NCBI RefSeq assembly: GCF_036178845.1
Contig: NZ_CP108070.1
Coordinates: 1,488,001-1,552,000, forward strand
Source: Streptomyces sp. NBC_00271
Lineage (GTDB): Bacteria > Actinomycetota > Actinomycetes > Streptomycetales > Streptomycetaceae
Reading direction: 5' to 3'
Length of the DNA stretch: 64,000 nt
Shown: in pieces, positions 11,253 through 40,640 of the stretch
Position numbering within the stretch: position 1 is the stretch's first letter
Layout of the letters: each line of letters opens with the position of its first letter
Notes under the pieces: model-generated
Told to the model about the DNA's origin: nothing
Seen by the model: only the letters and a program-made list of their open reading frames with translations
Database searches by the model: none
Program-made: the position numbers and the translations under genes

Positions 11253-11299
11253 TGAGAGCGCTCTCTCCGGGTTGTAGCCCCGCCCCTGTCCGGCGTCAA
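11253..11299 (-). promoter_or_regulatory. GH64 promoter with GAGAGCGCTCTC operator
   Basis: Read on the minus strand, TTGACG (11294-11299), a 16-bp spacer and CTACAA (11272-11277) form a plausible promoter. Just downstream lies GAGAGCGCTCTC, a perfect 12-bp palindrome (11254-11265), resembling the CebR-type LacI operator TGGGAGCGCTCCCA. The position suits repression of transcription start. The rest of 11300-11684 shows nothing recognisable. Confidence 0.65.
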
Positions 11300-12373: not shown

Positions 12374-13699
12374 TCACGCCAAGCGGCGGAATACGGGCTT
12401 CACCGGTCGTCCGGCCAGCCAGGGGGTGGGGTCGGCGGCGTCCAGTGCCTTCCGGTACACCGCACAGGTCTGGGCCACCACGTCGACGGTGTGATCGATG
12501 TCGGCGTCGTCGAGCGCGCTGCTCACCACGAACGACGGGGCCAGCACCCCGCCCTCGAGGAGCCGGCGCAGGAACAGGGTGCGGTACTGCTGCGACGGTT
12601 GCAGGTTCTCGTCGAGGGTGGCGAAGACCAGGTTGCTGGCCCGGCCCCGGACGACGATGTGGTCGCCGACGCCCATGGCGGCCGCGGCGTCGCGGACACC
12701 GGCGGCCAAGCGCTCACCGAGGGCGTGCAGCCGCGCCGTGACGCCCTCCTCGGCGTAGGTGGTCTGCACGGCCATCGCGGCTGCCAGGGAGTGCGTTTCC
12801 GCGCCGTGCGTGGTGGACAGCAGGAATACCCGGTCGCCGGAATGACGCAGCCCGCCCAGCTCCATCAGATCGCGGCGCCCGGCCAGCGCGGAGACGGCGA
12901 ATCCGTTGCCCAGCGCCTTGCCGAACGTGGAGAGGTCGGGGACGACGCCGTACAGGCCCTGGGCGCCCGCCTCGGACCAGCGGAAGCCGGTGATCATCTC
13001 ATCGAAGATCAGTACGCAGCCGTGCCGGTCGGCCAGCTCGCGCAGGCCGGCGAGGTACCCGGGCGGCGGCTCGGTGTGGGTGGCGGGTTCGAGGATCAGG
13101 CAGGCGACCTCGTCCCTGTACCGGGTGAGCAGCTCTTCCGTGGCGGCCAGGTCCCCGTAAGGGAACGCCACGGTGAGCTCGTTGGTCGCCGCCGGAATGC
13201 CGGCGGACATCGGCGTGGTGCCGATGAACCAGTCGTCGACGGAGAAGAACGGATGGTCGGCGCAGAGGGCCACCCGCGGGCGCCCGGTGGCGGCGCGGGC
13301 GAGCCGCACCGCGGCGGTGGTGGCGTCGGAGCCGTTCTTCGCGAACTTCACCATCTCGGCGGTCGGCACCGTGGCCAGGAAGCGTTCCGCGGCTTCGACC
13401 TCCACGATGGACGGCCGGACGAAGTTGCTGCCGCGGTCGAGTTCCCGCCGTACCGCCTCGATCACGCGTGGGTGGGTGTGGCCGAGGCTGACCGACCGCA
13501 GGCCGGAGCCGTACTCGACGTAGCGGTTGCCGTCAATGTCCCACACGTGGGCGCCGCGGCCGTGGCTGATGACCGGGGCCAGGTTCTCGGGGTACTGGTC
13601 GTCGCCCTTGGCGTAGGTGTGCGCGCCCCCGGGGATCATGGCGTGCAACCGCTCGTTGGCTGTCCGCGACAGGGGCAGGCGAAGCTCTTCGGTGTCCAC
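12374..13699 (-). CDS. Class III PLP aminotransferase, glutamate-1-semialdehyde-aminomutase-like
   Basis: This 441-residue protein is the last gene of the polysaccharide operon, 7 bp after the RfbC-like gene. It has GSA aminotransferase features: an N-terminal SRTANERLHAMIPGGAHTYAKG, FDEMITGFR, and the Schiff-base lysine in STFGKALGNGF near residue 261. True HemL is a haem enzyme. This copy, inside a sugar operon and with an extended C-terminus, more likely transaminates a sugar or a small substituent such as an amino acid side chain. The substrate is unknown. Confidence 0.85.
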   Translation of the reverse strand: MDTEELRLPLSRTANERLHAMIPGGAHTYAKGDDQYPENLAPVISHGRGAHVWDIDGNRYVEYGSGLRSVSLGHTHPRVIEAVRRELDRGSNFVRPSIVEVEAAERFLATVPTAEMVKFAKNGSDATTAAVRLARAATGRPRVALCADHPFFSVDDWFIGTTPMSAGIPAATNELTVAFPYGDLAATEELLTRYRDEVACLILEPATHTEPPPGYLAGLRELADRHGCVLIFDEMITGFRWSEAGAQGLYGVVPDLSTFGKALGNGFAVSALAGRRDLMELGGLRHSGDRVFLLSTTHGAETHSLAAAMAVQTTYAEEGVTARLHALGERLAAGVRDAAAAMGVGDHIVVRGRASNLVFATLDENLQPSQQYRTLFLRRLLEGGVLAPSFVVSSALDDADIDHTVDVVAQTCAVYRKALDAADPTPWLAGRPVKPVFRRLA

Positions 13700-13706
13700 G
13701 GGGACC

Positions 13707-14258
13707 TCAGCTTTCTCGGTGCTTCAGGACCTCGGCGAGACTCGGCGCCTCACGGTCCCGTTGGGACATCAGTGCGACCGGCAGCGGCCAGGGAATGGCC
13801 AGCTCCGGGTCGTCGAAGGCGATGGTCACGTCCTCGGCCGGATCGTGCGGGCGGTCGATGCGGTACGAGGTGTCGGCGGTGTCGGTCAGTGCCTGAAAAC
13901 CGTGCGCGCATCCCGCGGGAATGTAAAGAGTTGGTTGTGATTCTCCTGTGAGTTCAAAGGAGGCCCAATTGCGGTAAGTCGGAGAATCCGGCCGCAGGTC
14001 CACGACGACGTCGAAGATCCGCCCGTACGAGCACCGCACCAGTTTGGCCTCGCCGGCGCCGGAGCGCAGGTGCAGGCCGCGCAGCACGCCCCGGACCGAG
14101 CGGGACAGGCTGTCCTGGACGAAGGCGTCCGGGTCGAGGCCCACCGAGCGGACCACGTCGGCGTCGAAGGTGCGGCAGAAGAAGCCGCGTTCGTCGGTGT
14201 ACGGCGTCGGCTCGAAGAGATACGCGCCGGCGATCTCCGGGACTTCGGTCGCTTTCAT
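13707..14258 (-). CDS. dTDP-4-dehydrorhamnose 3,5-epimerase-like sugar epimerase (RfbC family)
   Basis: This 183-residue cupin-type epimerase has the RfbC layout: DERGFFCRTFD, QDSLSRSVRGVLRGLHLRSG with the catalytic-region His, GRIFDVVVDLRPDSPTY and YIPAGCAHGFQAL. RfbC enzymes epimerise C3 and C5 of 4-keto-6-deoxy sugar nucleotides. With a cytidylyltransferase-like gene upstream, the substrate may be CDP-linked, not dTDP-linked. ATG 14258 overlaps the pyruvyl transferase stop (ATGA). The middle of the gene has a lower-GC stretch around 13915-13985. Confidence 0.85.
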   Translation of the reverse strand: MKATEVPEIAGAYLFEPTPYTDERGFFCRTFDADVVRSVGLDPDAFVQDSLSRSVRGVLRGLHLRSGAGEAKLVRCSYGRIFDVVVDLRPDSPTYRNWASFELTGESQPTLYIPAGCAHGFQALTDTADTSYRIDRPHDPAEDVTIAFDDPELAIPWPLPVALMSQRDREAPSLAEVLKHRES

Positions 14259-15487
14259 GGAGACTCCTGCCGGGCGTGGGTGCGGTGGGTCGCGGGGAAC
14301 ACGGCTGCGGTCAACGAGCTGAACTGGTCCTCGAGTTGGCGTGCGGCGGCCAGGTTCCGCTCGGCGAGGGTCTGCCGCAGTTCGGGCGCTCGCTTCTCCA
14401 GCGCCCGGAATTGCTCCAGCAACCGGTCGGCGTCGACCTCGCGCGCCGGGTGGCAGTACGCGCCGAGGCCCATCCGGTCCATGAGCGCGTCGCTCTTCGC
14501 CGCGTAGCTGAGCGCGAGCACCGGTGTTCCGGTCTTCAGCGCGCAGATCAGGTTGTGGTAGCGGACCGCCACCACGGTGTCGGCGGCCACCATCTCCTTC
14601 ATCAGGTCGGCCAGGGAGCCCGGTTCGGCCGCGGTGACCAGCGGTGAGTCCACCGCCTCGAGGATCGCGGCGACCACCGTCGCATCGCACTGGTCGCCGG
14701 TGAGCAGCCGGACGGGCCTGCCCTCCTCGACCAGCGTGCGGACGAACCGGATCGTCCCGTCGAGGTAGCGACGGTAGATCTCGTCGGCCCGGGCGCGGTC
14801 GTCGTTGCCGCCGTGGAAGTCCATGACACCGACGCAGACCGTGCCCGGCGCGTCCGAGGACGGGCTCGCGGGCGGTGCCGGCAGGGAGAACGCCAGGTCG
14901 GGGTAGACCTCGTCGCGCGCGGTGTCCACGCCCATCGCCCGCATCGCGTCCCGGGACTGGGCGTCCCGGTAGGACCGGTAGGCGGCCAGGCGGCCCGACC
15001 AGCGGACCAGGGCGCGGGTCGGCCGGTTGCGGATCTCGGCGGCGCCGACGCTGACCAGGGCGACCCGGGTACGCGTCAGCCGGCCGCTCGCGCAGAGCAG
15101 GAACAGCGAGTACGGGAAGCCCCAGGGCCGTAGCGGCAGGGTGGCTTCCAGGACGCCCATGCCCGGCACGATCACCACGTCGTGGCGGCGCACCCAGGCG
15201 GCGGTGCGGAAGACGTCGACGAGTTTGCCGAGCCCCTTGGACGCGATCGCGCCCGCGCGGGACGCGGTCCGGTACTCGGCGCGGTTCCAGTGCATCCGGG
15301 TGGCGGGGATCCCGAACCGGGCCGTCACGGCCTCGGGCCCGCCGCACAGGGCGTCCACAACCACCTCGGGGTGGTCGGCGCGGAGGTATCCGAGGACGGC
15401 TTCGAGCGACCCGTCGTTGCCGAGGTTGCCGGAGCCGAGCAGGCCGAACACCCCGACGCGCACCGGAGTTCCGTCCGCGGACGTCAT
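14255..15487 (-). CDS. Polysaccharide pyruvyl transferase family protein
   Basis: This 410-residue protein opens with VGVFGLLGSGNLGNDGSLEAVL, has VIVPGMGVLE, LLTGDQCDATV and VAVRYHNLICALKTGTPVLALSY, and matches the CsaB/WcaK-type pyruvyl transferase family. Members add a pyruvate ketal from phosphoenolpyruvate to polymer sugars, giving acidic groups; some homologues have other transfer roles. ATG 15487 overlaps the stop of the GT2 gene. Pyruvylation would add negative charge to the predicted polymer. Confidence 0.88.
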   Translation of the reverse strand: MTSADGTPVRVGVFGLLGSGNLGNDGSLEAVLGYLRADHPEVVVDALCGGPEAVTARFGIPATRMHWNRAEYRTASRAGAIASKGLGKLVDVFRTAAWVRRHDVVIVPGMGVLEATLPLRPWGFPYSLFLLCASGRLTRTRVALVSVGAAEIRNRPTRALVRWSGRLAAYRSYRDAQSRDAMRAMGVDTARDEVYPDLAFSLPAPPASPSSDAPGTVCVGVMDFHGGNDDRARADEIYRRYLDGTIRFVRTLVEEGRPVRLLTGDQCDATVVAAILEAVDSPLVTAAEPGSLADLMKEMVAADTVVAVRYHNLICALKTGTPVLALSYAAKSDALMDRMGLGAYCHPAREVDADRLLEQFRALEKRAPELRQTLAERNLAAARQLEDQFSSLTAAVFPATHRTHARQESP

Positions 15488-16431
15488 GCCCGCCTCCCCT
15501 CGCGGCCGGCGACGAGAGCGTCGACGGAGACCGTGAGCTGGGCCGGGTCGACCGGGGCGCGGTCCTCGACCCGCTCGCCGGCGCCCGGCCGGACCCGGCT
15601 GGTCATCCACGAAGCCAGGTGGCGGTAGCAGGCGCGCCGGTCGGCCGGGGACAGCGGAGCCCGCCGGATCGCCGAGGCGAAGCCCCAGATGTACTCGGCG
15701 AGCAGCCGGGGCGTCGGGTGCAGCGCTCCTGCCCGGCGCGGGTCCAGGTTGACGCACCGGGAGCGCTTGGAGGGGTTCGCCCGCTCGGCGCGGGTGGGGT
15801 GGTCGCGGCGGAAGTACAGCAGCTCCGGCACCTGGTGGAAGCGTCCGTGCAGGGTGATCTCGGCGACGAACGTGCGGTCCGCGTGGTGGTAGCTGTCCAT
15901 CGGTTTCACCCGGCGCAGCATGTCGGCCCGCATCACCCCGTAGAAGTCGTCGCCACCCGGCTCGAACAGCAGACTGCGGAAGCGCTCCGGTGCGTGCGGG
16001 GAGTCGGTGGCGAGCGTGTACTCGTAGGGCACCGTCACCTGGCCGTCGCCGTCGATGACCGCCTGGTCGGTGTGCGCGAGGATCACGTCCGGTCTCTCGT
16101 CCAGCGCTTCCACGCAGCGCCGCAGCAGGTCGCGGCCGTAGAGGTCGTCGTGCGAGGCCCACTTGAACAGCTCGCCGCGGGACTCGGCGAAAACATGGTT
16201 GTGGTTCGGAGTGGCGCCGATGTTCCGGGGCAGGCGGTGGTACCGGATGCGTGAGTCCTGCGCGGCGTACTTGCGGCAGATGTCCTCGGTCCCGTCGGTC
16301 GAGGCGTTGTCGGAGACGACCAGTTCGAAGTCCTCGTAGGTCTGGCCGAGCAGCGCGTCGAACGACTCGGCCAGGTACTCCTCGCCGTTGTACACGGGCA
16401 GGCCGATGCTCAGCCTCGGTCGGTCGGTCAT
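15484..16431 (-). CDS. Family 2 glycosyltransferase
   Basis: The 315-residue cytoplasmic enzyme has a GT-A fold: LSIGLPVYNGEEYLAESFDALL, VVSDNASTDGTEDIC, and the acceptor-region WASHDDLYG. The late metal-binding motif and donor specificity are not clear from sequence. It overlaps both neighbours (Wzx stop and pyruvyl transferase start) by 4 bp. It probably adds one sugar of the repeat unit on the undecaprenyl carrier. Confidence 0.9.
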   Translation of the reverse strand: MTDRPRLSIGLPVYNGEEYLAESFDALLGQTYEDFELVVSDNASTDGTEDICRKYAAQDSRIRYHRLPRNIGATPNHNHVFAESRGELFKWASHDDLYGRDLLRRCVEALDERPDVILAHTDQAVIDGDGQVTVPYEYTLATDSPHAPERFRSLLFEPGGDDFYGVMRADMLRRVKPMDSYHHADRTFVAEITLHGRFHQVPELLYFRRDHPTRAERANPSKRSRCVNLDPRRAGALHPTPRLLAEYIWGFASAIRRAPLSPADRRACYRHLASWMTSRVRPGAGERVEDRAPVDPAQLTVSVDALVAGREGRRA

Positions 16432-17726
16432 GAGGTCCTCACTTCCGGGATGGGATCGCGGTGGCGCTCGCGCAGGGCGGAGCGCAGTTGCAGCCACCAC
16501 ACGGCCGAGCCGCTGATGGTCGCGGCGGCGACGCCCCAGGCCGAGCCGGCCGTGCCGCCGAGGGCCGCTCCGCCGAGTCCGCCGCCGACGTAGCAGGCGG
16601 AGGCGAACAGCTGGCAGCGCAGGCTGCGCCGGGCCGCGCCGAGCGCGCGCAGTCCGGCCGCCGCGCCAGTGCCGAGGCCCGCTCCCGCGACGCTGAGGGT
16701 GATCTGCACGATGAGGTGCGAGGAGGAGTGCCAGACGTCGCCGAGTGCGAGTTCACCGAGCCGGCCCGGCATCAGCAGCAGCGCCGAGCCCCAGAGCAGC
16801 GCTCCGGCGGCCTGCCCCCCGCCAAGGAGGAGACAGAACCTGCCCAGTTGATGCGGGGCCTGCCGCAGCACCCGTGCCGCCTCGGGGACGGTGACCAGCG
16901 AAAGCCCCATCAGCACGGCGAGGAACGGGCCGAGCAGAAGCTCGGCGCCGCGCACCGCACCCACCGCGCTCACCCCGACGATCGCGCCGAGCCCGTACGC
17001 CCGCAACTGGCTCGCGCCGCTGAGGCTGACGTTCTCGACCAGGTACCGGTAGCCAAGATCACGCTGTTCGCGCAGCCACCCGCGGGCCTGTGCGATCCGG
17101 GGCCGGATGCCGGACTGGACGCAGCCGTACCCGGCCGCCACCGTGGCGGACGCGCCCCAGGCGAGCACGAAGGCGGCCACACTGCCGACGTGGGCCGCCA
17201 CCACCATCGCCGGGACGAGCGCGATGCCCCACACGACGTCGTTGACGAACGCCTTCCGTCCGTCGCCTGCGGCGAAGAACGAGAACCGCCAGGCGTCCTG
17301 GAGCAGCAGCCCCGGCATCATGAGACCGAGGGCGGCGAAGGCGGGCCCCACCCGGCCGCCGAGGCCGAGTCCGGCGGCCAGGCACAGCACTCCGAGAGCC
17401 GTTCCTACGCCGAGCGCGGTACCCGTCGAGCGGGCCACCGCCCCGCGCCAGGACGCGTCCGGCCCTCCGCTGAAGCGGACCACGAGCGGGTCGGTGGCAA
17501 GGCCGCGGGAGACGTTGAGCACTACGCCGTAGGTCACCCAGGCGAGACTGAACACGCCGAACGCGGTCACCCCCAGGGAGCGGGCCACGTAGATGCCCAC
17601 CGCGAAGTTGCTGATGCTGGAGGCAGCCTGGTCGGCCAGTCCCCAGGAGAGCCGGCCGACGAGGGCCCGCTTGGCGGACCGGGCGGGTCTCGTCGCCTTC
17701 TCCCCGTCGGTGGTCGTCGGCGTCAT
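16428..17726 (-). CDS. Wzx-type lipid-linked oligosaccharide flippase
   Basis: This 432-residue integral membrane protein has about 12 hydrophobic segments, beginning LSWGLADQAASSISNFAVGIYVARSLG, a typical start for O-antigen flippases of the MOP superfamily. It would move the completed repeat unit across the membrane to the Wzy polymerase encoded earlier in the operon. It overlaps the DUF4910 gene stop and the GT2 start by 4 bp each. Confidence 0.85.
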   Translation of the reverse strand: MTPTTTDGEKATRPARSAKRALVGRLSWGLADQAASSISNFAVGIYVARSLGVTAFGVFSLAWVTYGVVLNVSRGLATDPLVVRFSGGPDASWRGAVARSTGTALGVGTALGVLCLAAGLGLGGRVGPAFAALGLMMPGLLLQDAWRFSFFAAGDGRKAFVNDVVWGIALVPAMVVAAHVGSVAAFVLAWGASATVAAGYGCVQSGIRPRIAQARGWLREQRDLGYRYLVENVSLSGASQLRAYGLGAIVGVSAVGAVRGAELLLGPFLAVLMGLSLVTVPEAARVLRQAPHQLGRFCLLLGGGQAAGALLWGSALLLMPGRLGELALGDVWHSSSHLIVQITLSVAGAGLGTGAAAGLRALGAARRSLRCQLFASACYVGGGLGGAALGGTAGSAWGVAAATISGSAVWWLQLRSALRERHRDPIPEVRTS

Positions 17727-18997
17727 GTCTTGATCAGCCCGGCCTCGTGGAGTGCGTCGGCGGCGCCGGCGACGGTGTCGAACGGCAGCCCGGACCGTTC
17801 GGCGACGTCCAGCAGACTGTGCTCGCCGTCGGAGAGGTTGAGCACCCAGAGCATGGCCATCTGTGCCTGCTTGGTGTCGCTGCGGCCGCCGAGCGCGTCG
17901 TACAACCCCCGTCGGCCCAGCTGGGGTTCGCCGTAGGGGCTGAGGTTGAGGTACCGCCGGTTGCGGTCGAGAACGGCGAACGCCTCGCGGCAGACCGCGA
18001 GGGTGTCCGCCATCGCCTCCGGGGAGACGAAGTCCGGGTTGTCCGCCGAGGTGTGGTACTCGGGGTAGCCGGCGTACGGGGTCCGGCTGAGCGATCCCAC
18101 GCCCAGATTGAACCCGGGTGAGCAGTACTGCCGCTCGTCGTATCCGTACGGGGTGAACTCGGTGACGTGGTGCGGGCGTTCAGACGCGGCCAGCACGTGC
18201 CGCAGCACCCGGTCGATCTCCGCGTCGCCGCGCCTGCTCTGCTTGTACGTCAGCTGCCCCGAGTCGCCGGCGCAGGCCAGCACGAGGCCGTGCTTGACCC
18301 GCTCGATCCGCTCCGCGTTGCGGGCCAGCCAGGTGATCGCCCCGATGGTGCCGGGGGCGTAGATGAACCGGTAGGTGTAGTACGGCGTCTGCCGCGCCAG
18401 CTCGCGGGCGAGGAAGGTCGCGACCGCGATGCCGGCCAGGTTGTCGTTGGCCAGCGACGGGTGGCAGACGTGGCAGGAGACGATGACCTCGTCGGCCACC
18501 TGTCCGGGGACCACGTGCTCGGCATAGGTGAGGTGGCCGTCCGCGAGGCTGGAGTCGACGCGCACCTCGTAGTCGCCGTCGGGCAGCGCGTCCAGGGTCT
18601 CCTGGGCCAGGCAGAAGCCCCATTCCGGCTTGTAGTAGCTGGTGCGGTACGGCACCCAGGTCGGGTGGTCCGGCAGGGTGTGCAGGTGTTCGCGGAGCTC
18701 GGCCAGCGGCATGGTCTTCGACACCGGCACGCTGTAGCCGAGCACGTGCAGGCTGGACGCGGCGAAGTCGACGACCCGCCGGCCGGTGGCGTCGGCGATG
18801 TACGCGTCCCGGATGTTCCACTCCTGCGGAACCGTCCAGTCGAGCACCTGCGTCCCGGTCGGCACCTCGTGCACCTGCAACGGGACGTACTCGCCGACGA
18901 TGTCCAGGGTGGCGCGCACACCGTCGCCGGTGATGCTCCGGCAGAGCGGGTACAGCCGCTCCACCAGCGCGTGCATCTCCTCGCCGACTGCGGTCAT
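17723..18997 (-). CDS. DUF4910 aminopeptidase-like protein with C-terminal winged helix
   Basis: The 424-residue protein matches the DUF4910/DUF2172 family of zinc-peptidase-like folds often found in polysaccharide clusters. Visible features are SCHVCHPSLANDNLAGIAVA (His and Asp ligands as in M28 peptidases), DSGQLTYKQSRRG, YGYDERQYCSPGFNLGVGSL and a final helix-turn-helix-like domain (about 355-424). Biochemical function is not established to my knowledge. It may hydrolyse or form an amide on an amino sugar. ATG 18997 overlaps the epimerase stop. Confidence 0.8.
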   Translation of the reverse strand: MTAVGEEMHALVERLYPLCRSITGDGVRATLDIVGEYVPLQVHEVPTGTQVLDWTVPQEWNIRDAYIADATGRRVVDFAASSLHVLGYSVPVSKTMPLAELREHLHTLPDHPTWVPYRTSYYKPEWGFCLAQETLDALPDGDYEVRVDSSLADGHLTYAEHVVPGQVADEVIVSCHVCHPSLANDNLAGIAVATFLARELARQTPYYTYRFIYAPGTIGAITWLARNAERIERVKHGLVLACAGDSGQLTYKQSRRGDAEIDRVLRHVLAASERPHHVTEFTPYGYDERQYCSPGFNLGVGSLSRTPYAGYPEYHTSADNPDFVSPEAMADTLAVCREAFAVLDRNRRYLNLSPYGEPQLGRRGLYDALGGRSDTKQAQMAMLWVLNLSDGEHSLLDVAERSGLPFDTVAGAADALHEAGLIKT

Positions 18998-20019
18998 CGG
19001 CGCCACCGCAGGGTGTCGTCGACGGTGCCGGCCTCGGAAGCCGCGCGCAGCACGGCGAGCCGGGTGAAGCGCTGCTCGAAGTCCTCCCGGGTCAGCCCGA
19101 ACTTCCGGTAGGCGTCGGCGAGTTCGAGCGCACCCTGCTTCACCGTCCACTCGCAGTCGAAGCCGGGTATCGCGGCGCGGAAGCGGGAGAAGTCGACCCG
19201 GTACGACCGCGGATCGGCACCGTTCTCGCCGGTGATCACCACCTTCGCGCCGGACACCGCCTCGGCGACCTGGTCGGCGATCTCGGCGACGGTGACGTTG
19301 TTGATCTCGCTGCCGATGTTGAACGCCCGGTCGTGCACCGCCTCGCGCGGCGCGGTCAGCGCGGCCGTGAAGGCGCGCGCGATGTCGGCGGCGTGCACCA
19401 GCGGGCGCCAGGGGGTGCCGTCGGAGAGGACCAACACCTCGCCGGAAAGCAGCGCGTGGCCGACAAGATTGTTGAGCACGATGTCGGCGCGCAGCCGGGG
19501 CGAGTAGCCGAAGGCGGTGGCGTTGCGCATGAACACCGGGGTGAAGTCGCCGTCGGCCAGCGCGTGCAGGTCGTCCTCCACCCGCACCTTCGACTCCGCG
19601 TACGGCGTCACCGGGCGCAGTGGAGCGTCCTCGTCCACCAGGCCGTCGCCGCCGGAGGCGCCGTAGACGGAGCAGGTCGACGCGTACAGGAAGCGTCGTA
19701 CTCCGGCGTCGCGGGCCAGTCGGGCCAGCCGCACGGACGCGTGGTGGTTGATGTCGTAGGTGAGTTCGGGCGCCAGCGAGCCGAGCGGGTCGTTGGACAG
19801 CGCGGCCAGGTGGATCACAGCTTCCACCCCGGCCACGTGGTCGGCGGTGATGTCGCGCAGGTCCACCCGCTCCCCCGGCGGGTCGGCGGGCGCCGGGCCG
19901 AGGACGGAGTCGGCGAACAGGCCGGCGTCGAGACCGACGACCTCGTGTCCGGCGGCCGTGAGCACCGGGGCCATTACGGTGCCCAGGTAGCCCTGGTGTC
20001 CAGTCAGCAGTACGCGCAA
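18994..20019 (-). CDS. NAD-dependent sugar epimerase/dehydratase (extended SDR)
   Basis: This 341-residue enzyme has the NAD-binding motif TGHQGYLG at residues 6-13, HLAALSNDP, and the SDR catalytic pair in TPYAESK, with STCSVYG supplying the Ser/Thr. It would act on a nucleotide-activated keto-sugar made for this polymer. The exact reaction (epimerisation, reduction or dehydration) cannot be assigned. It starts 3 bp after the PIG-L gene. Confidence 0.88.
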   Translation of the reverse strand: MRVLLTGHQGYLGTVMAPVLTAAGHEVVGLDAGLFADSVLGPAPADPPGERVDLRDITADHVAGVEAVIHLAALSNDPLGSLAPELTYDINHHASVRLARLARDAGVRRFLYASTCSVYGASGGDGLVDEDAPLRPVTPYAESKVRVEDDLHALADGDFTPVFMRNATAFGYSPRLRADIVLNNLVGHALLSGEVLVLSDGTPWRPLVHAADIARAFTAALTAPREAVHDRAFNIGSEINNVTVAEIADQVAEAVSGAKVVITGENGADPRSYRVDFSRFRAAIPGFDCEWTVKQGALELADAYRKFGLTREDFEQRFTRLAVLRAASEAGTVDDTLRWRR

Positions 20020-20022
20020 GGT

Positions 20023-20670
20023 TCAATCCCCCAGGTTGAGCGTGAGTTTGGTGACGGCGAACGCCTCGGCGTAGCGCGCGTGGCATTCGATGCCGCGGAT
20101 CCGGGCAAGGCCGAGGAAGGCTTCCCGGTCGTACCAGGGCCGGTGCCGCTGCGAGGGATAGTGCTCCTGCAGCAGTTGCACCTTCTGTTCGGCGATCTCA
20201 GGTGACAGCGGCTGGTACGCCGCCGGTCGGCCGAGGTCGCCGTCCCACTTGACGATCTCGTAGCCGAGCACGAGGTGGTCACGGAACGCCGTGGTCATCA
20301 GCTTCGCCAGGCCGCGGTGATCCTGGTGGGCGTCGTCGGTGCGCGGCGCAAGGACCAGCTCCGGTTCGGTCTGCAGGCGCAGCTCCTCGACCGCGGCCTT
20401 GGCCTCCTCCCAGTGCGCGGGCAACCGGCCGTCCGGCAGCTTGTGCACGGTCAGCCGCAGGTCGGCGCCCGGGCAGAAGGCGGTGAGCGCGGCCTGTTCC
20501 TCCTGCTCCCGCTCGCTGCCGCCGCCGGAGAGCACCAGCGCGTCGACACGGATTCCGGGCCGCGCCTGGCACAGCGTCAGCAGCGTGCCGCCGGCACCGA
20601 TGGCGATGTCGTCGCAGTGCGCGCCCACCGCGACGATCCGGTCCAGGGGCCCGGCCCCGAGCCGGATCAC
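20023..20670 (-). CDS. PIG-L family N-deacetylase
   Basis: The 215-residue protein shows the PIG-L zinc signature AVGAHCDDIAIGAGGTLL, a variant of AHPDD, and a second site AHQDHRGLAK. PIG-L enzymes remove N-acetyl groups from GlcNAc-type sugars. The free amine could then be acylated or otherwise modified, which fits the aminotransferase and DUF4910 genes nearby. The start is GTG 20670, which overlaps the upstream stop (GTGA). Confidence 0.88.
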   Translation of the reverse strand: MIRLGAGPLDRIVAVGAHCDDIAIGAGGTLLTLCQARPGIRVDALVLSGGGSEREQEEQAALTAFCPGADLRLTVHKLPDGRLPAHWEEAKAAVEELRLQTEPELVLAPRTDDAHQDHRGLAKLMTTAFRDHLVLGYEIVKWDGDLGRPAAYQPLSPEIAEQKVQLLQEHYPSQRHRPWYDREAFLGLARIRGIECHARYAEAFAVTKLTLNLGD

Positions 20671-23928: not shown

Positions 23929-23930
23929 GG

Positions 23931-25220: not shown

Positions 25221-25221
25221 C

Positions 25222-26763: not shown

Positions 26764-26771
26764 TCGCCCCC

Positions 26772-30931: not shown

Positions 30932-30946
30932 CCGAACTCCTGATTT

Positions 30947-32881
30947 CTAAGCCGTCAACCGAGCGCTCTGGCCGGACCCGGAGGTCGCGTCGCGATACCA
31001 GTACTCGAGGGTCAGTACGTGCCACAGATGCTTGGAGAAGTCCCGCTGCCCGGCGGCGTCCTCGGCGACCATGCGCGCCAGCGCGTCGCGGCGCAGGAGC
31101 CCGGAACGGACGAGCTCGCCGTCGTTGACGACCTCGCGCACCAGCGGTGCCAGGTCCCGGCTCATCCAGGCGCGCAGCGGGGCGCTGAACAGGCCCTTGG
31201 GCCGGTACACGATCTCCTTGGGCAGGACCGAGGTGGCCGCCTCCTTGAGGACGACCTTGCCCTGCCGTCCGACGATCTTGCGATCACCGGGCACGGCGAA
31301 CGCCGCCTTCACCACTTCGACGTCCACATACGGCACCCGTACCTCGGTCGACGCGGCCATGCTCGACCGGTCCGTGTAAGCGAGGTTCAGGCCCGGCAGG
31401 AACATCCGGGCGTCGGTGAGGCACATGCGGTTGACGAAGTCGTCGAGGTCGTTGTCCTGGTAGACGTCCGCGTGTTCGGTCACCACGTCGTCGACCGTCC
31501 CGGCCAGGTCCGGATCGAGAAGGGCGAGCAGCTCGTCCTGGTCGTACATGGTGTAGCTGCGCCGGAACGCGGTCTCCTCGGGCAGATCGGCGAAGGAGAG
31601 GAACCGCTTCGCGAAACGCACCGACCTGTAGCCCCTGCGGGCCGAGGCGACCGGCAGCCGGTCCACGACCCCGGACACCCCGCGCCGCAGGGGCCGCGGG
31701 ACGCGCTGGTAGCGCAGCGCGAGGAGGTTGGCCAGGTGCTTGCGGTACCCGGCGAACAGTTCGTCTGCGCCCATCCCCGAGAGCATCACCTTGACCCCGG
31801 CCTCCCGGGCGGCCATGCAGATCAGGTACGTGTTGATCGCGGCGGGGTCGCCGATCGGCTCGTCCAGGCTGTACGTCATCTGCGGCAGCAGGTCGAGCAC
31901 ATTCGGGGCGATCTCGATCTCGTGCAGGTCGACACCGAACTTCTCCGCGACCTGCCGGGCGTAGCGCAGGTCGTCCGGCATCGCCTCGAACTTGGCGTCC
32001 TCGGCGCGGAAGCCGATCGTGTAGGCGGAGATCCCGGGTTGGTGGCGGGCCGCCAGCGCGGTCAGGTAGCTGGAGTCGAGGCCGCCGGAGAGGAAGGTCG
32101 CCACGGGTACGTCGGATATGAGGTGGCGGCGGGTCGACTCCTCGACGATGGCGGCGAGGTCGGGCTGTTCACCGGCCAGTGCCCGGTCCCGGCCCTCGGC
32201 GGCGACGTCCTTCAGGTTCCAGAAGCTGCCGCGCTCCACCCGGCCGTCGGGCCGGCACCTCAGCCAGCTCCCCGGCGGCAGCTTCTCCGCCTCGCGGAAC
32301 GCGCAGCGCGAGTCCGGCACCCAGTAGTAGAGCAGGGACGCCACCAGCGCCGCGTGGTCCACCTCCAGCGACTTGCCGGTCACGGCGGCGAGCGCCTTGA
32401 GCTCGGAGGCGAACATCAGGCCCTCGCCGCGCCGCAGCAGGAACAGCGGCTTGATGCCGAGCTGGTCGCGGACGAGCACCAGGTCGCCGGTGCGCTCGTC
32501 GAAGATGCCGAACGCGAACATGCCGCGCAGCCTGGGCAGGCAGTCGGTGCCCCAGCGCCGCCAGGCCTCCAGGACCACCTCGGTGTCGGAGGTGCCGCGG
32601 AAGCGCACCCCGGTGGCCTCCAACTCGGCGCGGAGTTCGGGCGCGTTGTACAGCTCGCCGTTGTACGTCAGGGCGAGGCCGTCCGAGACCATCGGCTGGG
32701 CGCCGGTCTCCGACAGGTCGACGATGGCCAGCCTGCGGTGCCCGAGCTGCACCTCGCCGTCACCCAGGGGGTGGCCGTAGCGGCCCGAGCCGTCCGGGCC
32801 GCGGTGGGCGAGGGTGTGGGTGAGCCGGTCGGTCACTGCCTTTCCGTCCGGCCATCGGTAAGTGCCTGCGATGCCACACAC
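30947..32881 (-). CDS. asnB: Asparagine synthase-like glutamine amidotransferase
   Basis: This 644-residue protein begins MCGIAGTYRW, so Cys2 is the glutamine amidohydrolase nucleophile. The PP-loop ATP site is TFLSGGLDSSYLTALAA near residue 265, and SGMGADELFAGY follows. Asparagine synthase folds in sugar operons often amidate uronic acids (WbpS-like), not aspartate. With an AlgD-like dehydrogenase in the same operon, a uronamide in the polymer is a reasonable inference. The gap to the downstream gene is 15 bp and to the upstream Wzz-like gene 3 bp. Confidence 0.9.
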   Translation of the reverse strand: MCGIAGTYRWPDGKAVTDRLTHTLAHRGPDGSGRYGHPLGDGEVQLGHRRLAIVDLSETGAQPMVSDGLALTYNGELYNAPELRAELEATGVRFRGTSDTEVVLEAWRRWGTDCLPRLRGMFAFGIFDERTGDLVLVRDQLGIKPLFLLRRGEGLMFASELKALAAVTGKSLEVDHAALVASLLYYWVPDSRCAFREAEKLPPGSWLRCRPDGRVERGSFWNLKDVAAEGRDRALAGEQPDLAAIVEESTRRHLISDVPVATFLSGGLDSSYLTALAARHQPGISAYTIGFRAEDAKFEAMPDDLRYARQVAEKFGVDLHEIEIAPNVLDLLPQMTYSLDEPIGDPAAINTYLICMAAREAGVKVMLSGMGADELFAGYRKHLANLLALRYQRVPRPLRRGVSGVVDRLPVASARRGYRSVRFAKRFLSFADLPEETAFRRSYTMYDQDELLALLDPDLAGTVDDVVTEHADVYQDNDLDDFVNRMCLTDARMFLPGLNLAYTDRSSMAASTEVRVPYVDVEVVKAAFAVPGDRKIVGRQGKVVLKEAATSVLPKEIVYRPKGLFSAPLRAWMSRDLAPLVREVVNDGELVRSGLLRRDALARMVAEDAAGQRDFSKHLWHVLTLEYWYRDATSGSGQSARLTA

Positions 32882-32884
32882 GTC

Positions 32885-34405
32885 CTACCGCACCTCCTGG
32901 TCGTTGTCCGGGACCCGTGCGGCCCGTATCGGCTGGCGTTCGGTGAGCCGCCGGCCCGTCGCGTTCTGCCAGGTCGGCCGCTCGGTCCGGCCGCGCAGCG
33001 CGTTGGCCAGCCCGTCCCACAGCGTGCCGTCGGTCCGGTCGCGCCGATCGGGGTCGATCAGCACCACACCGATCACCGGGATGCGCTGGTCCGCGAGTTG
33101 CCGCGCCACTGTGTGCAGCCATGCGGCGCTGCCGTGCCCGGCACGCACCACGAGCACGGTCTGGGTGCCGAGGTACTGGAGGTCGGTCCACGCCGTGCCG
33201 GGCGCCACCGAGCCGACGCCGATCCGCTGCTCCTGAGGCGACACGGCCGCGGCGCGTTCGCCGCTGACCACGGTGGGGTCTCCTGGCTTCGGGCGGCGGC
33301 CTGCGAGCTGCGGGCGGGGGAGACCGTCGATGACGACCACTGGCCCGTCCTCCGCCAGTGCCCGGGCGAGGCCGAGGGCGATCACGCTCGTGCTGCGCGC
33401 GCAGCCCAGTTCCAGCAGCGACAGCGGTTCCGCGGAGCCGCGCGCGGTGCGGGCAAGGGTCGTGGTGAGCCGTTCGCGTGCCACCCGGGTCCGTCGGCGC
33501 TGCCACAGCCTGCCCGACCGGCGGGGCAGTTCCGCGATGACCGAGGCGCCGAGGTTCGCCGCGATGTCCCGGCGCAGCACAGGCCGGTCCGCGACCACGA
33601 CGCCGACCGCGGCCAGCGCGAGCCCGAGGAAGAGCCCGAGGACGAGTCCGATCACGGCGTTGGTGACGGCGGCCTTGGGCAGGGAGTGCGGCACCGCGCG
33701 CGGGGCGTCCACGATCTGGGTGCCGGCGACGAGCTGGGGCGCGCCAACGCGTGCCTCCTCGGCACGTTGGCCGAAGTCGGAGATCTGCGAGGTGAGTTCG
33801 GCCCGCCGGGCGAAGAGCGACTCGAGGTTCGCCGCGTCCTTCGGGTCGGTGCCGGGCGACCGGCCGCCGATCGCCTTGTTGACGTCGGCGAGCTCCACCT
33901 GCATGCGGTCACGCTGATCGAGCAGGCCCTTGGCGTTGGCGTTGGCGATGGCCTGGATGCGCTTGGCGTGGTCCGCGACGAACGCTTCGGCCAGTGCCTT
34001 GGCCCGGGCCACCGCTTCCGCGTCGGTCTTGCCCGTCACATCGATCTCGAGGACGTTGTTGGTCAGTCCGGCGCCCCGGTAGTCCTTCATGAAGTCCGCC
34101 GGTTTTTCCGGGGACTTGAGGATCCGCAGGGCCTGGCCGGCGATCCGCGAGGTGCCCAGCAGCTGGGCGTCGGTGCGGATCAGCGTTCCGGTGTCGTTCG
34201 GCTGGTCCTCCTGATGCGCGACCAGCACCTTGGTCACCGCGGCCGGTGCCGGCGGCAGCAGGACCGCCACGGCCGCGCCGCTCAGCAGTCCCAGCAGCGC
34301 CATGGCGCTCCACAGGCGGCGTCGGCGGCGGACCGCGACCACCAGCCCCTGCAGGTCGATGAGCGGAGCGGTGGCCGACGACTCCGAAGTCGTACTCGTC
34401 GTCAC
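32885..34405 (-). CDS. Wzz-like chain-length protein with degenerate tyrosine-kinase domain (second copy)
   Basis: This 506-residue protein has a cytoplasmic start, one membrane helix near 33-53, an extracellular coiled-coil region, a second helix near 258-280 and a cytoplasmic domain. That C-terminal domain resembles a BY-kinase (CpsD/Wzc). The P-loop position reads LELGCARSTSVIALGLARAL, lacking GK, while the Walker A' strand PVVVIDG remains. Kinase activity is thus unlikely. It overlaps the first Wzz-like gene by 4 bp. It probably controls chain length and export. Confidence 0.82.
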   Translation of the reverse strand: MTTSTTSESSATAPLIDLQGLVVAVRRRRRLWSAMALLGLLSGAAVAVLLPPAPAAVTKVLVAHQEDQPNDTGTLIRTDAQLLGTSRIAGQALRILKSPEKPADFMKDYRGAGLTNNVLEIDVTGKTDAEAVARAKALAEAFVADHAKRIQAIANANAKGLLDQRDRMQVELADVNKAIGGRSPGTDPKDAANLESLFARRAELTSQISDFGQRAEEARVGAPQLVAGTQIVDAPRAVPHSLPKAAVTNAVIGLVLGLFLGLALAAVGVVVADRPVLRRDIAANLGASVIAELPRRSGRLWQRRRTRVARERLTTTLARTARGSAEPLSLLELGCARSTSVIALGLARALAEDGPVVVIDGLPRPQLAGRRPKPGDPTVVSGERAAAVSPQEQRIGVGSVAPGTAWTDLQYLGTQTVLVVRAGHGSAAWLHTVARQLADQRIPVIGVVLIDPDRRDRTDGTLWDGLANALRGRTERPTWQNATGRRLTERQPIRAARVPDNDQEVR

Positions 34406-35772
34406 GCTGGATCTCCTGTCGCGTGGCCCTGAACCGCGAGCGCCAGGGTGGCCTCGTCAGAAGGTCGGTCGGCGGTGCGCGGCGGGCGGTTGCGGACCGT
34501 GCCGGCCACGACGACGCCGACGACCTCGTGCCCGCCGTCCGCACACGCCTCGGCGATGCCGGCGAGTTCCTCGGCGGTCCAGCTGCCCGCGCTGAGGACG
34601 GCCAGGGCACCGGACTCGGTGTCGCGGTCCGGCACGATCGGCCGGTCCACCGAGACCTCCACCACCCGCAACTGCGGATCACCGGTGGCCTCGGCGACGA
34701 GCTGTCCGGCGGCCAGCCGGGCGACCTCGTCGCCTTCCGGTACGACGACCAGCAGCCGCCGGGGGGCGGGCAGTTGGACTCTGAGGCGGGCGCACACCCG
34801 CCGGTAGCGGATCCGCCGCTCGGCCTCGTCGCCGGAGCGCTGCGGGGCCGGTACGTCCCATCGGACGTCGGTGCCGAGCAGCCGGCGGAGCCGGGCCCGT
34901 GCGCCATGGCTCTCGGGCCGGTGTCCGTGCCGTTCGCCGGGCACGTCGACGGTGCCGAGGAACGGCGAGCCGAGCGCCGCGGCGATCTCCGGTTCGGTGC
35001 GCAGCCGGCGGCTCACCCGTGCGGCGGCGAGATGGCCGACGACCGCGAGCAGGACGAACAGCAGCGCCCCGGCGACGATGAGCTGCATCCTCGTCGGCGC
35101 CGCCGCGCCGGTGGGTCGGGGTGCCGGCCCCATGACGACCATGCCGGCCTTGGTGGTCGCCGGGTTGGCCTCCTCCAGCTTCTTCATGGCGTCCTGCAGC
35201 CCGGTGCGCAGACCCTCGAGCTCGGTGCGGGCCTGCACGGCCTCCACGGTCTGCCCCGGATCTGCCGAGTTGGCCAGGTCGGTGATACGGCGGTTGGTCT
35301 CGGCCACCTGCTTCCGCAGCGCCTCTGTCGCCGTGTCCGCCGCGGGGTCGGTGCTGCCGCCCGCGATGCGGGTGGCGAAGGTGACGAACTGCTGGGCCAG
35401 CTGGTCGGAGAGCCGCTGCGCGCGCTCCGGGGTGTCGGCCGTACCGGAGACCTTGATGATGTTCCCGTCGTCCGCCTTGGCGCTCACGTCTTTCTGCAGC
35501 TCGGTGCCGTCGACGCCCGTCCAGTGGAGCGCGGCGGCCGCGCGGTCGACCACCGCCGAACTGGTGGCGATGTCCACCTGGGTCAGCAGTTCGCGCTCTT
35601 CCCACTGACCCGGCAGCAGTACCGATGCCTCTGCCGTGTACCGCGGCGGAAGCAGCAGCACCGAGGTGCCGTAGCCGAAAAGCGCGCCCACTACGGCGAG
35701 GACGGCGAGGAGCCGCCACCGCCGACGGAGAATCCGTCCGATCGTGACCAGGCGGATCGTGTCGTCATTCAA
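34402..35772 (-). CDS. Wzz-like chain-length protein with degenerate C-terminal domain (first copy)
   Basis: The 456-residue protein starts MNDDTIRLVTIGRILRRRWRLL, has membrane helices near 20-42 and 228-250, a coiled-coil periplasmic region (LRKQVAETNRRITDLANS, TGLQDAMKKLEEA) and a cytoplasmic C-terminal Rossmann-like part (LLVVVPEGDEVARLAAGQLV, no P-loop). The domain order is that of the Wzz/Wzc co-polymerase family. It overlaps the GT4 gene and the second copy by 4 bp each. Two paralogues in tandem suggest a hetero-oligomeric exporter, unproven. Confidence 0.82.
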   Translation of the reverse strand: MNDDTIRLVTIGRILRRRWRLLAVLAVVGALFGYGTSVLLLPPRYTAEASVLLPGQWEERELLTQVDIATSSAVVDRAAAALHWTGVDGTELQKDVSAKADDGNIIKVSGTADTPERAQRLSDQLAQQFVTFATRIAGGSTDPAADTATEALRKQVAETNRRITDLANSADPGQTVEAVQARTELEGLRTGLQDAMKKLEEANPATTKAGMVVMGPAPRPTGAAAPTRMQLIVAGALLFVLLAVVGHLAAARVSRRLRTEPEIAAALGSPFLGTVDVPGERHGHRPESHGARARLRRLLGTDVRWDVPAPQRSGDEAERRIRYRRVCARLRVQLPAPRRLLVVVPEGDEVARLAAGQLVAEATGDPQLRVVEVSVDRPIVPDRDTESGALAVLSAGSWTAEELAGIAEACADGGHEVVGVVVAGTVRNRPPRTADRPSDEATLALAVQGHATGDPA

Positions 35773-37023
35773 TGGTGCGGCCTCTTCCCCGTACGGAGCG
35801 GCCCACCCGCCGACACCGGGGCTTGGTCCCGGCAGGCGGCGGCGTAGGCGGCGAGCAGTGACGCTTGCGAGTTCCGCCAGGAGAGCGGCCCGCTGATCCG
35901 CTCCTGGCCGGTCTTTCCCATCCGGGCCCGCTTCTCCGGATCGTCGAGGAGCAGCGCGATGAGTTTGGCGAACTGGGCCTCGTCGTTGGCGGGCGCGTAG
36001 ACGGCGGCGTCACCGGCGGAGACGCGCGCTTCCCGGAGGTCGAACGAGACGATCGGCCGCCCCATCGCCATGTACTCCAGGACCTTGTTCATGGTCGACA
36101 CGTCGTTGAGCGGATTGTGCGGGTCGGGGGAAAGGCATACGTCGGCGGTGCACAGGTAGCGCACCAGGTCGGCGTCCGGGATGCGTCCGGTGAACTGCAC
36201 CTGCTCGGAGAGACCGAGCCGCCGGGACAGTTCGACCATCGCGTCGAAGGCGTCGCCGGCGCCGACGAAGACCGCGTGCCAGTCGGTCCGGCCGACCTCG
36301 TCGCGCAGTTTCGCCAGGGCCCGCAGAGCGTAGTCGACCCCGTCCTGAGGGCCCATGACGCCGAGGTAGCACAGCAGATGGGGCTTGCCGCGCTTCAACT
36401 CCGGCTCCGGGGGCACCGGTTGGAACCGGTCGGTCGCGGGTGCGCTGCGCACCACGAAGACGTCCTCCGCCCGCCGGCCGCCGCGGCGCAGCGCGACGTC
36501 CTTGTAGCTCTCGTTCGTGGCGAGCACGATGTCCGCGGCCCGGTAGGTCCGCCGTTCCAGCGCGCACACGGCGCGGTAGAGCAGGTCCTCGCCGCGGTCG
36601 AACCGGGAGAGGTACAGCTCGGGCACCAGGTCGTGCTGGTCGAAGACGAACCGCGCGCCGCGCCGCTTCATCCACAGAGCCGGCAGGAACAGCAGGTCGG
36701 GCGGGTTGCAGGCGTGAACCACGTCGACCGGGCCGACCTTGCGGGCCAGCCGGACCGTGTGCCACAACGCCGATCCGTATTCCCGCAGGTATCCGGCCGG
36801 CCCTCCGGTGGCCGCGCGCAACGGGTAGCGGTGGATCCGCACCCCCTCGATCACCGCCTCCGGCTCCGTGTCCCGCTTCTCCCCCTGGGGACAGATGACG
36901 TGGACCTCCCAGCCCGCGTCGCGCAGCGTCGTGCACTCCTGCCACACCCGCCGGTCGAAGGGGACCGAGAGGTTCTCCACCAGGATCAGCGCGCGACGGT
37001 TCGTCCCGTCGCCGCCGGTCGCG

Positions 37024-37034
<11 letters not shown>
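35769..37034 (-). CDS. Family 4 glycosyltransferase
   Basis: The 421-residue GT-B enzyme has RRALILVENLSVPFDRRVWQECTTL near the start, VVHACNPPDLLFLPALWMKR, FDQHDLVPELYLS in the N-terminal half, and SPDPHNPLNDVSTMNKVLEYMAMGRP in the donor-binding half. The likely start is TTG 37034, which overlaps the dehydrogenase stop; GTG further in (V19) is possible. It would add an early sugar after the initiating transferase. The final EX7E motif is not clearly present. Confidence 0.87.
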
Positions 37035-38340
<1,306 letters not shown>

Positions 38341-38410
38341 GACCGGTCTCTCCCCCCAGGCAGGCCCCTGCGGCCTGCGGTCCGCGCGCCGGTCGGACGA
38401 CCCCCGCGCA

Positions 38411-39910
38411 TCAGTAGGCCCCCTGCCCGTGGAGCACGGCACGCAGCGTCTTCCACAAGATCACTGTGTCCAGGGCGAGCGACCAGTCCTCCACGTACCG
38501 CAGGTCGAGGCGGACGGCCTCCTCCCACGGCAGGTCGCTGCGTCCGCTGATCTGCCACAGGCCGGTGAGCCCGGGCTTGACCAGCAGCCGCCGCCGGATG
38601 TCCGGGTCGTACGCGGCGCACTCCTCCGGTAGCGGAGGCCGCGGTCCGACGAGCGACATCGATCCGGTCAGCACGTTGAAGAGCTGTGGGAGCTCGTCGA
38701 GCGAGTACCGGCGCAGCACTGCTCCCACCCGGGTCACCCGCGGATCCCGGCGGAGCTTGAACAGCAGGCCCGCGCCCTCGTTGCGGTCGGTCAACTGGGC
38801 ACGTGCCCCGTGGGCCCCGGCGACCATGGTGCGGAACTTGACGATGGTGAACTCGCGGCCGTCCTTGCCGACCCTGCGCTGGCGGTATAAGACCCCGCCC
38901 CGGCTGTCCACCAGGACGAGCAGCCCGACGAGGACCATCAGCGGCGCGAACAGCATCAGCAGGATCGCCGCGCCCATCCGATCGACGACCCCCTTGATCG
39001 CCCGGCGGCCTCCGGTGAAGGTCGGCATGCTGACCCGCAGCAGCGGTATCCCGAGCACCGCGTCGACGTGCAGCCGCGGGCCGGCCACCTCCATCAGCAC
39101 GGGGGCCACGATCATCTCGGCGTCGCTGCCTTCGAGGTTCCAGGCCAGCCGCTGCAGCCGGTCCGGTGACCAGTGCGGGTCCGGTGTGACCGCGACGACG
39201 CGGTAGCCGTCGTGGCGGACGTGCTTGGCGACATCCTCCAGCAGGCCGATGACCGGCACTCCGTCCAACTGGTCGCCGTCGAGCCCGCCTTGGTCGCCGT
39301 CGAGCCCGCGGCCGTCCGTCGTGCACACCGCCTCCACCCGCCAGCCGAGGTGCGGGAGCTTGCGGGTTCGGTTGATCAGGTCGCGCACGGTGGCCGGGCT
39401 CCCGGCAGCGAGCACCGGTCTCAGGCAGCGTCCTTCGTTGCGCTGTTTGTGCAGCCAGAGGCGGAGCAGATACCGCTCGGTCATGGTGACGAGCGCGATC
39501 GCGGGGATCGCGACGAAGATCCAGAGCTTGATGTTGCGCGAGGTCAGGGCGATCCCGCCGAGTGCCAGGACGACGGTCGCCGTGAACAGTGAGCGTCCGA
39601 GTCGGCGGAATTCCTCGGCGCCCTGGCCGAGTACGGCCGGAGACCACGACCGGCTCACCGCGAGCGCTCCCAGCACCAGCAGTTGGGTGCCGAAGGCGAG
39701 AATTCCCCACTTCTCATGCCAGTTGGCCGCGTCCCGGGCCCCGAAGAAGTCGCCGATCGCCGCCACCACGAAGGCGGTGGCCACGGTGTCACTGATGATC
39801 ACGGTACGTCTGTACCGCTGCTCCCATTCGATCGCGGGCTGGCTGATTGCCCCGTCCGCCAGACGCCCGCGCGCCGACGGATAAGGGCCGACTATTCCCC
39901 CCTGCCGCAC
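38411..39910 (-). CDS. Polyprenyl glycosylphosphotransferase initiating polymer assembly (WcaJ/WbaP type)
   Basis: The 499-residue protein has four or five N-terminal membrane segments, a CoA-binding-like middle, then a membrane hairpin and the catalytic bacterial sugar transferase domain: DRMGAAILLMLFAPLM, VGKDGREFTIVKFRTM, LRRYSLDELPQLFNVLTGSMSLVGPRPPLP, and VKPGLTGLWQISGR. It transfers sugar-1-phosphate to undecaprenyl phosphate. GTG 39910 follows a GGGGGG run; an in-frame TTG at 39922 is an alternative. It heads the operon. A tandem 18-bp repeat at 39287-39325 gives a short GLDGDQ repeat in the protein. Confidence 0.88.
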   Translation of the reverse strand: MRQGGIVGPYPSARGRLADGAISQPAIEWEQRYRRTVIISDTVATAFVVAAIGDFFGARDAANWHEKWGILAFGTQLLVLGALAVSRSWSPAVLGQGAEEFRRLGRSLFTATVVLALGGIALTSRNIKLWIFVAIPAIALVTMTERYLLRLWLHKQRNEGRCLRPVLAAGSPATVRDLINRTRKLPHLGWRVEAVCTTDGRGLDGDQGGLDGDQLDGVPVIGLLEDVAKHVRHDGYRVVAVTPDPHWSPDRLQRLAWNLEGSDAEMIVAPVLMEVAGPRLHVDAVLGIPLLRVSMPTFTGGRRAIKGVVDRMGAAILLMLFAPLMVLVGLLVLVDSRGGVLYRQRRVGKDGREFTIVKFRTMVAGAHGARAQLTDRNEGAGLLFKLRRDPRVTRVGAVLRRYSLDELPQLFNVLTGSMSLVGPRPPLPEECAAYDPDIRRRLLVKPGLTGLWQISGRSDLPWEEAVRLDLRYVEDWSLALDTVILWKTLRAVLHGQGAY

Positions 39911-40480: not shown

Positions 40481-40484
40481 CGAG

Positions 40485-40640
40485 CCATCCGAACTCACCT
40501 CAGCAGGCAGGGCGTTCACGCGGTGGTGCCGCGAGCGGCCGATCAGATCGCGACACGCAAACGCCGTGGCGGATCCGGTGGCTGCCGGCTGGCCTTCGCC
40601 GGCCTTCCCCGGCCTTCGCTGGTACGGGAGCGCGACAAGA
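40485..40640 (+). pseudogene. Decayed IS5-family transposase fragment
   Basis: One plus-strand frame reads AIRTHLSRQGVHAVVPRAADQ then KRRGGSGG, which aligns with AIRENLRRRGIRAVIPVTADQ and RRGSRGG of the other IS5-family relic at 44.7-45.1 kb. The C-terminal DDE motif is missing and no intact frame remains. The sequence from 40640 to 41006 gives no recognisable gene. Confidence 0.55.

Follow-up and report, generated by a model that had tools for sequence, protein, structure and literature searches.

Is a long run of polysaccharide genes in Streptomyces sp. NBC_00271 a new exopolysaccharide pathway or a copy of a known one, and do the enzymes agree with the sugars reported for the product? These questions are raised by a 64,000-nucleotide stretch of contig NZ_CP108070.1 (positions 1,488,001 to 1,552,000; hereafter, the window), from a host genome of 12.28 Mb in 3 contigs. 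An all-frame reading of the window gave 21 consecutive genes, all on the minus strand, spanning 12374-39910. The initial annotation had described just such an array with many 4-bp overlaps, and this is borne out: with the start codons that we chose, on which these figures depend, 13 of the 20 junctions overlap (11 by exactly 4 bp, the other two by 8 and 11 bp), and the remaining seven have gaps of 2-70 bp. The genes for a pyruvyltransferase, a nucleotidyltransferase and an SDR protein are masked by longer shadow frames in a mechanical list of open reading frames. The annotation also held that no described Streptomyces polymer has such a gene set. That claim fails, because the set is that of the Ebosin ste cluster (ste5-ste24) of Streptomyces sp. 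139 and, by gene number and annotation, of SCO0381-SCO0401 of S. coelicolor. The locus thus matches a characterised polysaccharide cluster and is already known; the window holds a new copy.

The operon is very probably the ste/SCO0381-SCO0401 locus

We consider it very probable that the locus is the ste/SCO0381-SCO0401 exopolysaccharide operon of Streptomyces. The published orf2 primers match one fetched genome (G027) exactly, at the published orf2 coordinates (CP043959.1:2537865-2538608; PMC11078827), and the published ste5, ste8 and ste17 primers do so with zero mismatches, while one ste2 primer has a single mismatch; G027 was therefore identified as Streptomyces sp. 139. Within this genome, the ste5 primers map to the gene 1 orthologue and those for ste17 to that of gene 13; the site of the ste8 primers is flanked by the beginning of the WzzA match on one side and by the WzzB match on the other. 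All other ste numbers used here were assigned by gene order, which is consistent with the function groups of ste1-ste27 as outlined in PMC11078827. All 21 genes recur in G027 with order and strand unchanged and with identities of 61-93%, the WzzA match being partial; the individual proteins, however, diverge by 7-39%. A second difference concerns the neighborhood. Streptomyces sp. 139 is reported to carry a dasR-like ste1 and dasABC-like ste2-4 beside the cluster, according to the description in PMC4398421, whereas in the window the upstream side (43248-47420) is occupied by transposase genes and those of a two-component pair, and no DasR operator (dre consensus) was found within the window at up to 3 mismatches.

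The resemblance of SCO0381-SCO0401 to the ste cluster has been noted in PMC4398421. The S. coelicolor locus likewise has 21 genes, and the annotated functions, as given in the relevant parts of the sources, agree at SCO0381 and SCO0382 (PMC6629963, PMC2267785), SCO0390 (PMC8981147), and SCO0392, SCO0395, SCO0400 and SCO0401 (PMC2000904). In addition, SCO0382 is described in PMC5982138 as a GDP-mannose dehydrogenase predicted to form GDP-mannuronate, within an extracellular polysaccharide operon, so that the alginate analogy is already published. S. rubrogriseus is reported to lack the cluster (PMC5932044). The two loci differ in their TTA codons, which are reported in SCO0383 and SCO0399, whereas the single TTA of the window lies in gene 1. 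Among the 25 loci of our set (the window and 24 other fetched genomes), TTA codons concentrate in the first two genes, with gene 1 affected in 11, gene 2 in 9 and either in 13, some of the gene 1 positions depending on the chosen start. This distribution fits the effect of bldA on SCO0381-SCO0401 that has been reported.

A Wzx/Wzy-type gene set with an AlgD-type dehydrogenase

Families were assigned by Pfam and NCBIfam profile scans, and selected proteins were compared by sequence with the PDB; the pathway steps proposed below follow from these families. The scans recovered all of the families named in the initial annotation, an AlgD-like dehydrogenase with GFAFGGSCLPKD, an AsnB-type amidotransferase, a heparinase II/III-like protein and a MDR-Gfo/Idh fusion. 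Together, the assignments support a Wzx/Wzy-type exopolysaccharide operon with a true AlgD-type enzyme.

Assembly would begin with gene 1 (38411-39910; ste5/SCO0381), for a polyprenyl glycosylphosphotransferase (Bac_transf, 214 bits; TIGR03025, 389 bits against a cut-off of 296) that may transfer the first sugar phosphate onto undecaprenyl phosphate. Three glycosyltransferases could then extend the lipid-linked unit: the GT4 enzymes of gene 3 (35769-37034; ste7/SCO0383 by order; Glycos_transf_1 families) and gene 11 (22690-23928; ste15; Glycos_transf_1, 99.2 bits), and the GT2 enzyme of gene 18 (15484-16431; ste22; Glycos_transf_2, 95.2 bits). Gene 19 (14255-15487; ste22b) codes for a polysaccharide pyruvyltransferase (PS_pyruv_trans, 82.2 bits) that would add pyruvate. 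The repeat unit would be flipped by the probable Wzx of gene 17 (16428-17726; ste21) and polymerized by the probable Wzy of gene 10 (23931-25229; ste14/SCO0390), with chain length set by the two Wzz-like proteins of gene 4 (34402-35772; ste8; Wzz, 32.2 bits) and gene 5 (32885-34405; ste9; Wzz, 41.2 bits), both over the family cut-off. Thus, of the complete Wzx/Wzy system claimed at first, the priming transferase and the Wzz-type co-polymerases stand, whereas the Wzx and Wzy families gave only weak matches.

The product of gene 2 (37024-38340; ste6/SCO0382) scored 473.6 bits against the GDP-mannose 6-dehydrogenase of Pseudomonas (1mfz), the next entry being a UDP-glucose dehydrogenase at 228.7 bits, which bears out the AlgD-type assignment; the enzyme would produce GDP-mannuronate. 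Its GGSCLPKD motif is present in 25/25 loci, with the Cys at residue 268, which we take to be the Cys position in AlgD too. Six further UDPG/MGDP dehydrogenase homologues of the host genome share 28-36% identity with it. Gene 6 (30947-32881; ste10) codes for an AsnB-type glutamine amidotransferase (Asn_synthase, 313.9 bits; GATase_7) with an N-terminal CGI and SGGLDSS kept in 25/25 loci; ste10 is reportedly named as an asparagine synthetase gene in the title of a paper on it. This protein may convert a carboxylate to an amide. Gene 7 (28727-30931; ste11) specifies the two-domain oxidoreductase (ADH_zinc_N and GFO_IDH_MocA). Homologues of three of these proteins, MDR-Gfo/Idh (39-42% identity), the dehydrogenase (33%) and AsnB (31%), were seen at a second, distant locus of the same genome (G000:C1:4600041-4640040). 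Chain trimming or epimerization could be the role of gene 8 (26772-28730; ste12), a heparinase II/III-like protein (Hepar_II_III_C, 173 bits) with NNH and EYHG in 25/25 loci and HAHAD in 24/25, and of gene 9 (25222-26763; ste13), a right-handed beta-helix protein (Beta_helix, 50.3 bits) with a lipoprotein-like N terminus. The gene 9 product has no PDB relative by sequence, and its single-sequence structure prediction reached a mean pLDDT of 30.

The remaining genes (12-16, 20 and 21) would produce a 3-C-methylated, probably aminated sugar. For gene 12 (21458-22693; ste16/SCO0392; Methyltransf_13/14), the closest PDB entry is the D-mycarose 3-C-methyltransferase 4rv9 (289.4 bits). Gene 13 (20667-21461; ste17) codes for a sugar-1-phosphate nucleotidyltransferase of the glucose-1-phosphate cytidylyltransferase type (1tzf, 146.6 bits), its score for TIGR02623 (186.4 bits) being under the cut-off of 300, and gene 14 (20023-20670; ste18) for a PIG-L type deacetylase (52.1 bits) with HCDD in 24/24 loci. 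Gene 15 (18994-20019; ste19/SCO0395) is an SDR nucleotide-sugar epimerase/dehydrogenase (Epimerase, 158 bits) whose closest PDB entry, 6vo6 (100.4 bits), is an SDR of a Campylobacter capsule pathway. Gene 16 (17723-18997; ste20) specifies a DUF4910 metallopeptidase-like protein (386.6 bits) closest to 3k9t (503.6 bits), the subject of PMC4000134, where a function connected with modified surface polysaccharides was already put forward. Gene 20 (13707-14258; ste23/SCO0400) encodes an RmlC-type 3,5-epimerase (dTDP_sugar_isom, 192.5 bits; TIGR01221, 167.5 bits, over cut-off) and gene 21 (12374-13699; ste24/SCO0401) a class III aminotransferase (Aminotran_3; NF004856, 717.4 bits against a cut-off of 486). 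The active-site motifs of the AlgD, AsnB, heparinase-like, C-methyltransferase, PIG-L and aminotransferase proteins are kept in all or all but one of the 24 or 25 loci; other motifs are more variable, such as the DUF4910 pattern CHVCHPSLANDN, found in 17/24.

The operon is kept as a block across Streptomyces

The 24 other genomes were picked from the matches for a spread of identities and for good assembly, and are not a random sample. The ordered gene set, whose search across actinobacterial genomes had been proposed with the initial annotation, was colinear in 23 of them, with all 21 genes kept in order and strand; in the 24th (G458) the contig ends inside gene 11. Conservation on this scale indicates that the gene order is more than chance. 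A second set of 80 named loci, the best 80 of 356, comes almost entirely from Streptomyces but includes one locus each from Kitasatospora and Streptantibioticus; the first eight genes are in order in 76, three are cut by contig ends and one is without a WzzA match.

The MDR-Gfo/Idh protein was used to gauge distribution. In a Streptomyces sample, 118 of 295 genomes (the host included) matched at an E-value of 1e-60; 112 carry an orthologue at 84% identity or more, three of these split or partial, and the other six matches reach only about 42%. In a sample of the family, matches were found in 53/249 genomes (51 orthologues), in 5 of 17 genera. In a sample of the phylum they were found in 27/396, namely five Streptomyces, G596 (63% identity), G553 (60%) and 20 genomes at 34-45%; AlgD matched in 15/396 at 1e-90, and seven of these also match MDR-Gfo/Idh. 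The distant actinobacteria G596 and G553 keep AlgD, GT4, AsnB, MDR-Gfo and the heparinase-like protein, and G596 additionally shows Wzz-like and Wzy-like matches, whereas the half of the operon devoted to the C-methyl sugar is not kept.

Trees of rpoB and of the operon, built for 24 genomes, have 7 of 21 splits in common. Among the 12 well-supported rpoB splits, five are common to the operon tree and six are contradicted by it. The two sets of distances correlate with r 0.44, a value reached in 3 of 2000 permutations. Upstream flanks have a protein in common in only 4 of 300 locus pairs. On a mild reading, with rpoB as the one marker gene, these data suggest that the operon was inherited partly by vertical descent and partly by transfer.

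The operon has a leader of its own

Two details are new: next to gene 21 lies a PAP2 gene that converges on it, and the operon is preceded by its own specific leader, which has a promoter-like block and 0-5 tandem hairpins. In the window, the leader (39911-40278, minus strand) contains two tandem hairpin units, one at 39970-39989, and is preceded by the near-invariant promoter-like block ATGGTCTAGATTGACC (40279-40294, minus strand). We compared 95 distinct leaders, from the 25 fetched genomes (window included) and from 70 of the 80 named loci; the other 10 were dropped with a first gene too near the contig end or unmatched. The first 14 bases of the block are found in 95/95 leaders with at most 2 mismatches, and exactly in 75, at 182-505 bases (median, 383) ahead of the start of gene 1. 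In whole genomes, the 16-base form was located at the leader in 8/8 (five exact, three with 2 mismatches). There were four extra 2-mismatch matches in the host genome; a reversed control pattern gave 12 matches over the eight genomes, and 2-mismatch matches alone therefore say little. The hairpin, CGGGAGGCGGGGGCCTCCCG, allowing one mismatch, gave a single, leader-located match in six of the eight genomes and was absent in two, with one match for the control.

Hairpin copies number 0 in 3 leaders, 1 in 23, 2 in 33, 3 in 31, 4 in 3 and 5 in 2, against 0 in 91 and 1 in 4 shuffled leaders, and leaders with more copies tend to be longer (r 0.62). A stem of at least 8 pairs at -90 to -45 occurs in 76/95 leaders as compared with 1.5% of shuffles. 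In 70 aligned sequences, 94.4% of the stem cells are paired, against 63-66% in slid controls, and one stem pair is G-U in 38 of the 70, which suits an RNA. Other results argue against an RNA reading: a letter shuffle pairs at 93.1%, only slightly less than the real stem; stem cells changed on both sides number five, below two slid controls (7 and 9); and RNAalifold returned 3 pairs only, with zero covariation. Rfam gave no match at E up to 1 for 39700-40500. With few two-sided changes, a small gain over the shuffle and no covariation, conservation of the hairpin is largely at the sequence level; we infer that it may act as RNA.

Flanking genes

The PAP2-family phosphatase gene (11685-12371, plus strand; PAP2, 44.7 bits) is found beside gene 21 in 23 of the 24 loci that reach that far, within 200 bp in 22 of the 23. 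It is missing in G421 and matches in two pieces in G027. It is the only downstream neighbor that recurs widely and a probable 22nd member of the module, and its product might recycle the lipid carrier. A short way past the operon lie glucanase-type genes with F5/8 C domains, an alpha-1,3-glucanase type at 5492-9763 (plus strand) and a GH64 beta-1,3-glucanase type at 9837-11366 (minus strand). Upstream of the operon (43248-45418) are two DDE transposase genes, then genes for a response regulator and a histidine kinase. Elsewhere in the genome, matches near 256604-261955 and 11670160-11675511 of G000:C1, a contig of 11.93 Mb, have equal scores and mirror each other in their distance from its two ends, which points to terminal inverted repeats some 260 kb or more in length.

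Discussion

Several points weigh against equating the operon with the ste/SCO0381-SCO0401 locus and against the assembly scheme. The match to S. coelicolor is one of gene numbers and published annotation, and the largest gap there, reported as 102 bp between SCO0386 and SCO0387, is 15 bp in the window. The gene 10 product scored 21.6 bits for Wzy_C, below the cut-off of 31.7, with 10 hydrophobic windows. For that of gene 17, the best Pfam match, Polysacc_synt_3, stayed at E 0.5, short of any family assignment, and a crude Kyte-Doolittle scan shows only five hydrophobic windows, so that position and hydrophobicity are what suggest a Wzx. For gene 8, the lack of an obvious signal peptide and of any hydrophobic window fits a secreted lyase poorly and makes secreted heparin lyase only a possible role. 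As to chemistry, the published effect of ste7 replacement on the composition of Ebosin speaks for the locus, yet the mutant polymer is described as keeping the same sugars (PMC4347597). The genes predict a uronamide and a 3-C-methyl sugar, both absent from the Ebosin lists: the two sugar lists, as set out in PMC4347597 and PMC11078827, disagree with each other, and neither names an amide or a branched sugar, sialic and glucuronic acid being among the entries in the second. The main text of PMC4347597 contains none of the terms 'amide', 'C-methyl' and 'NMR'.

One way to account for this mismatch is that the polymer is an alginate-like or glycosaminoglycan-like uronamide, the product suggested in the initial annotation, and that the reported Ebosin sugars are largely contaminants or other glycans, an explanation to which we give appreciable but less than even credence. 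An AlgD-type dehydrogenase, AsnB, heparinase-like and beta-helix proteins do occur in one operon, and AlgD, GT4, AsnB, MDR-Gfo and the heparinase-like protein remain together in G596 and G553. The system shares with that of Pseudomonas alginate the GDP-mannose 6-dehydrogenase and, as loose parallels, a beta-helix protein and a lyase-like fold. Against this, Pfam scans found no Alg8/Alg44 alginate synthase and no hyaluronan, heparosan or other glycosaminoglycan synthase family among the 21 genes, the logic of assembly is lipid-linked instead, and the amide is itself a prediction. It is very improbable that the genes make the deoxysugar of a small secreted metabolite, as the S. coelicolor label of an unknown deoxysugar or glycosyltransferase cluster and the reported co-regulation with antibiotic clusters could imply, given that the operon encodes a priming transferase, a probable polymerase and a pair of Wzz-like proteins, that its SDR has STCSVYG (24/24 loci) at the site of the Asp-Glu pair of 4,6-dehydratases, and that a host-genome profile search for CDP-glucose 4,6-dehydratase gave nine matches, none over the cut-off, which makes a deoxysugar doubtful for the CDP route, a dTDP-glucose dehydratase elsewhere not having been searched for.

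We thus return to the ste/SCO0381-SCO0401 exopolysaccharide operon. A more speculative proposal, rather unlikely as a whole, combines two parts: that the analyses of Ebosin overlooked two residues, one an amidated mannuronic acid or a derivative of it and the other a 3-C-methyl amino sugar, and that the operon is driven from an operon-specific promoter through a leader whose 0-5 tandem RNA hairpins tune or anti-terminate transcription of its 27 kb. The locus links an anti-inflammatory polysaccharide, the uncharacterised 'deoxysugar' cluster of the model S. coelicolor and an operon found without change of gene order in more than one third of the sampled Streptomyces species. Its interest lies in the chemistry gap, the published sugars not fitting the genes, in the invariance of the operon, and in the leader, which poses a specific question about how long actinobacterial operons are regulated.

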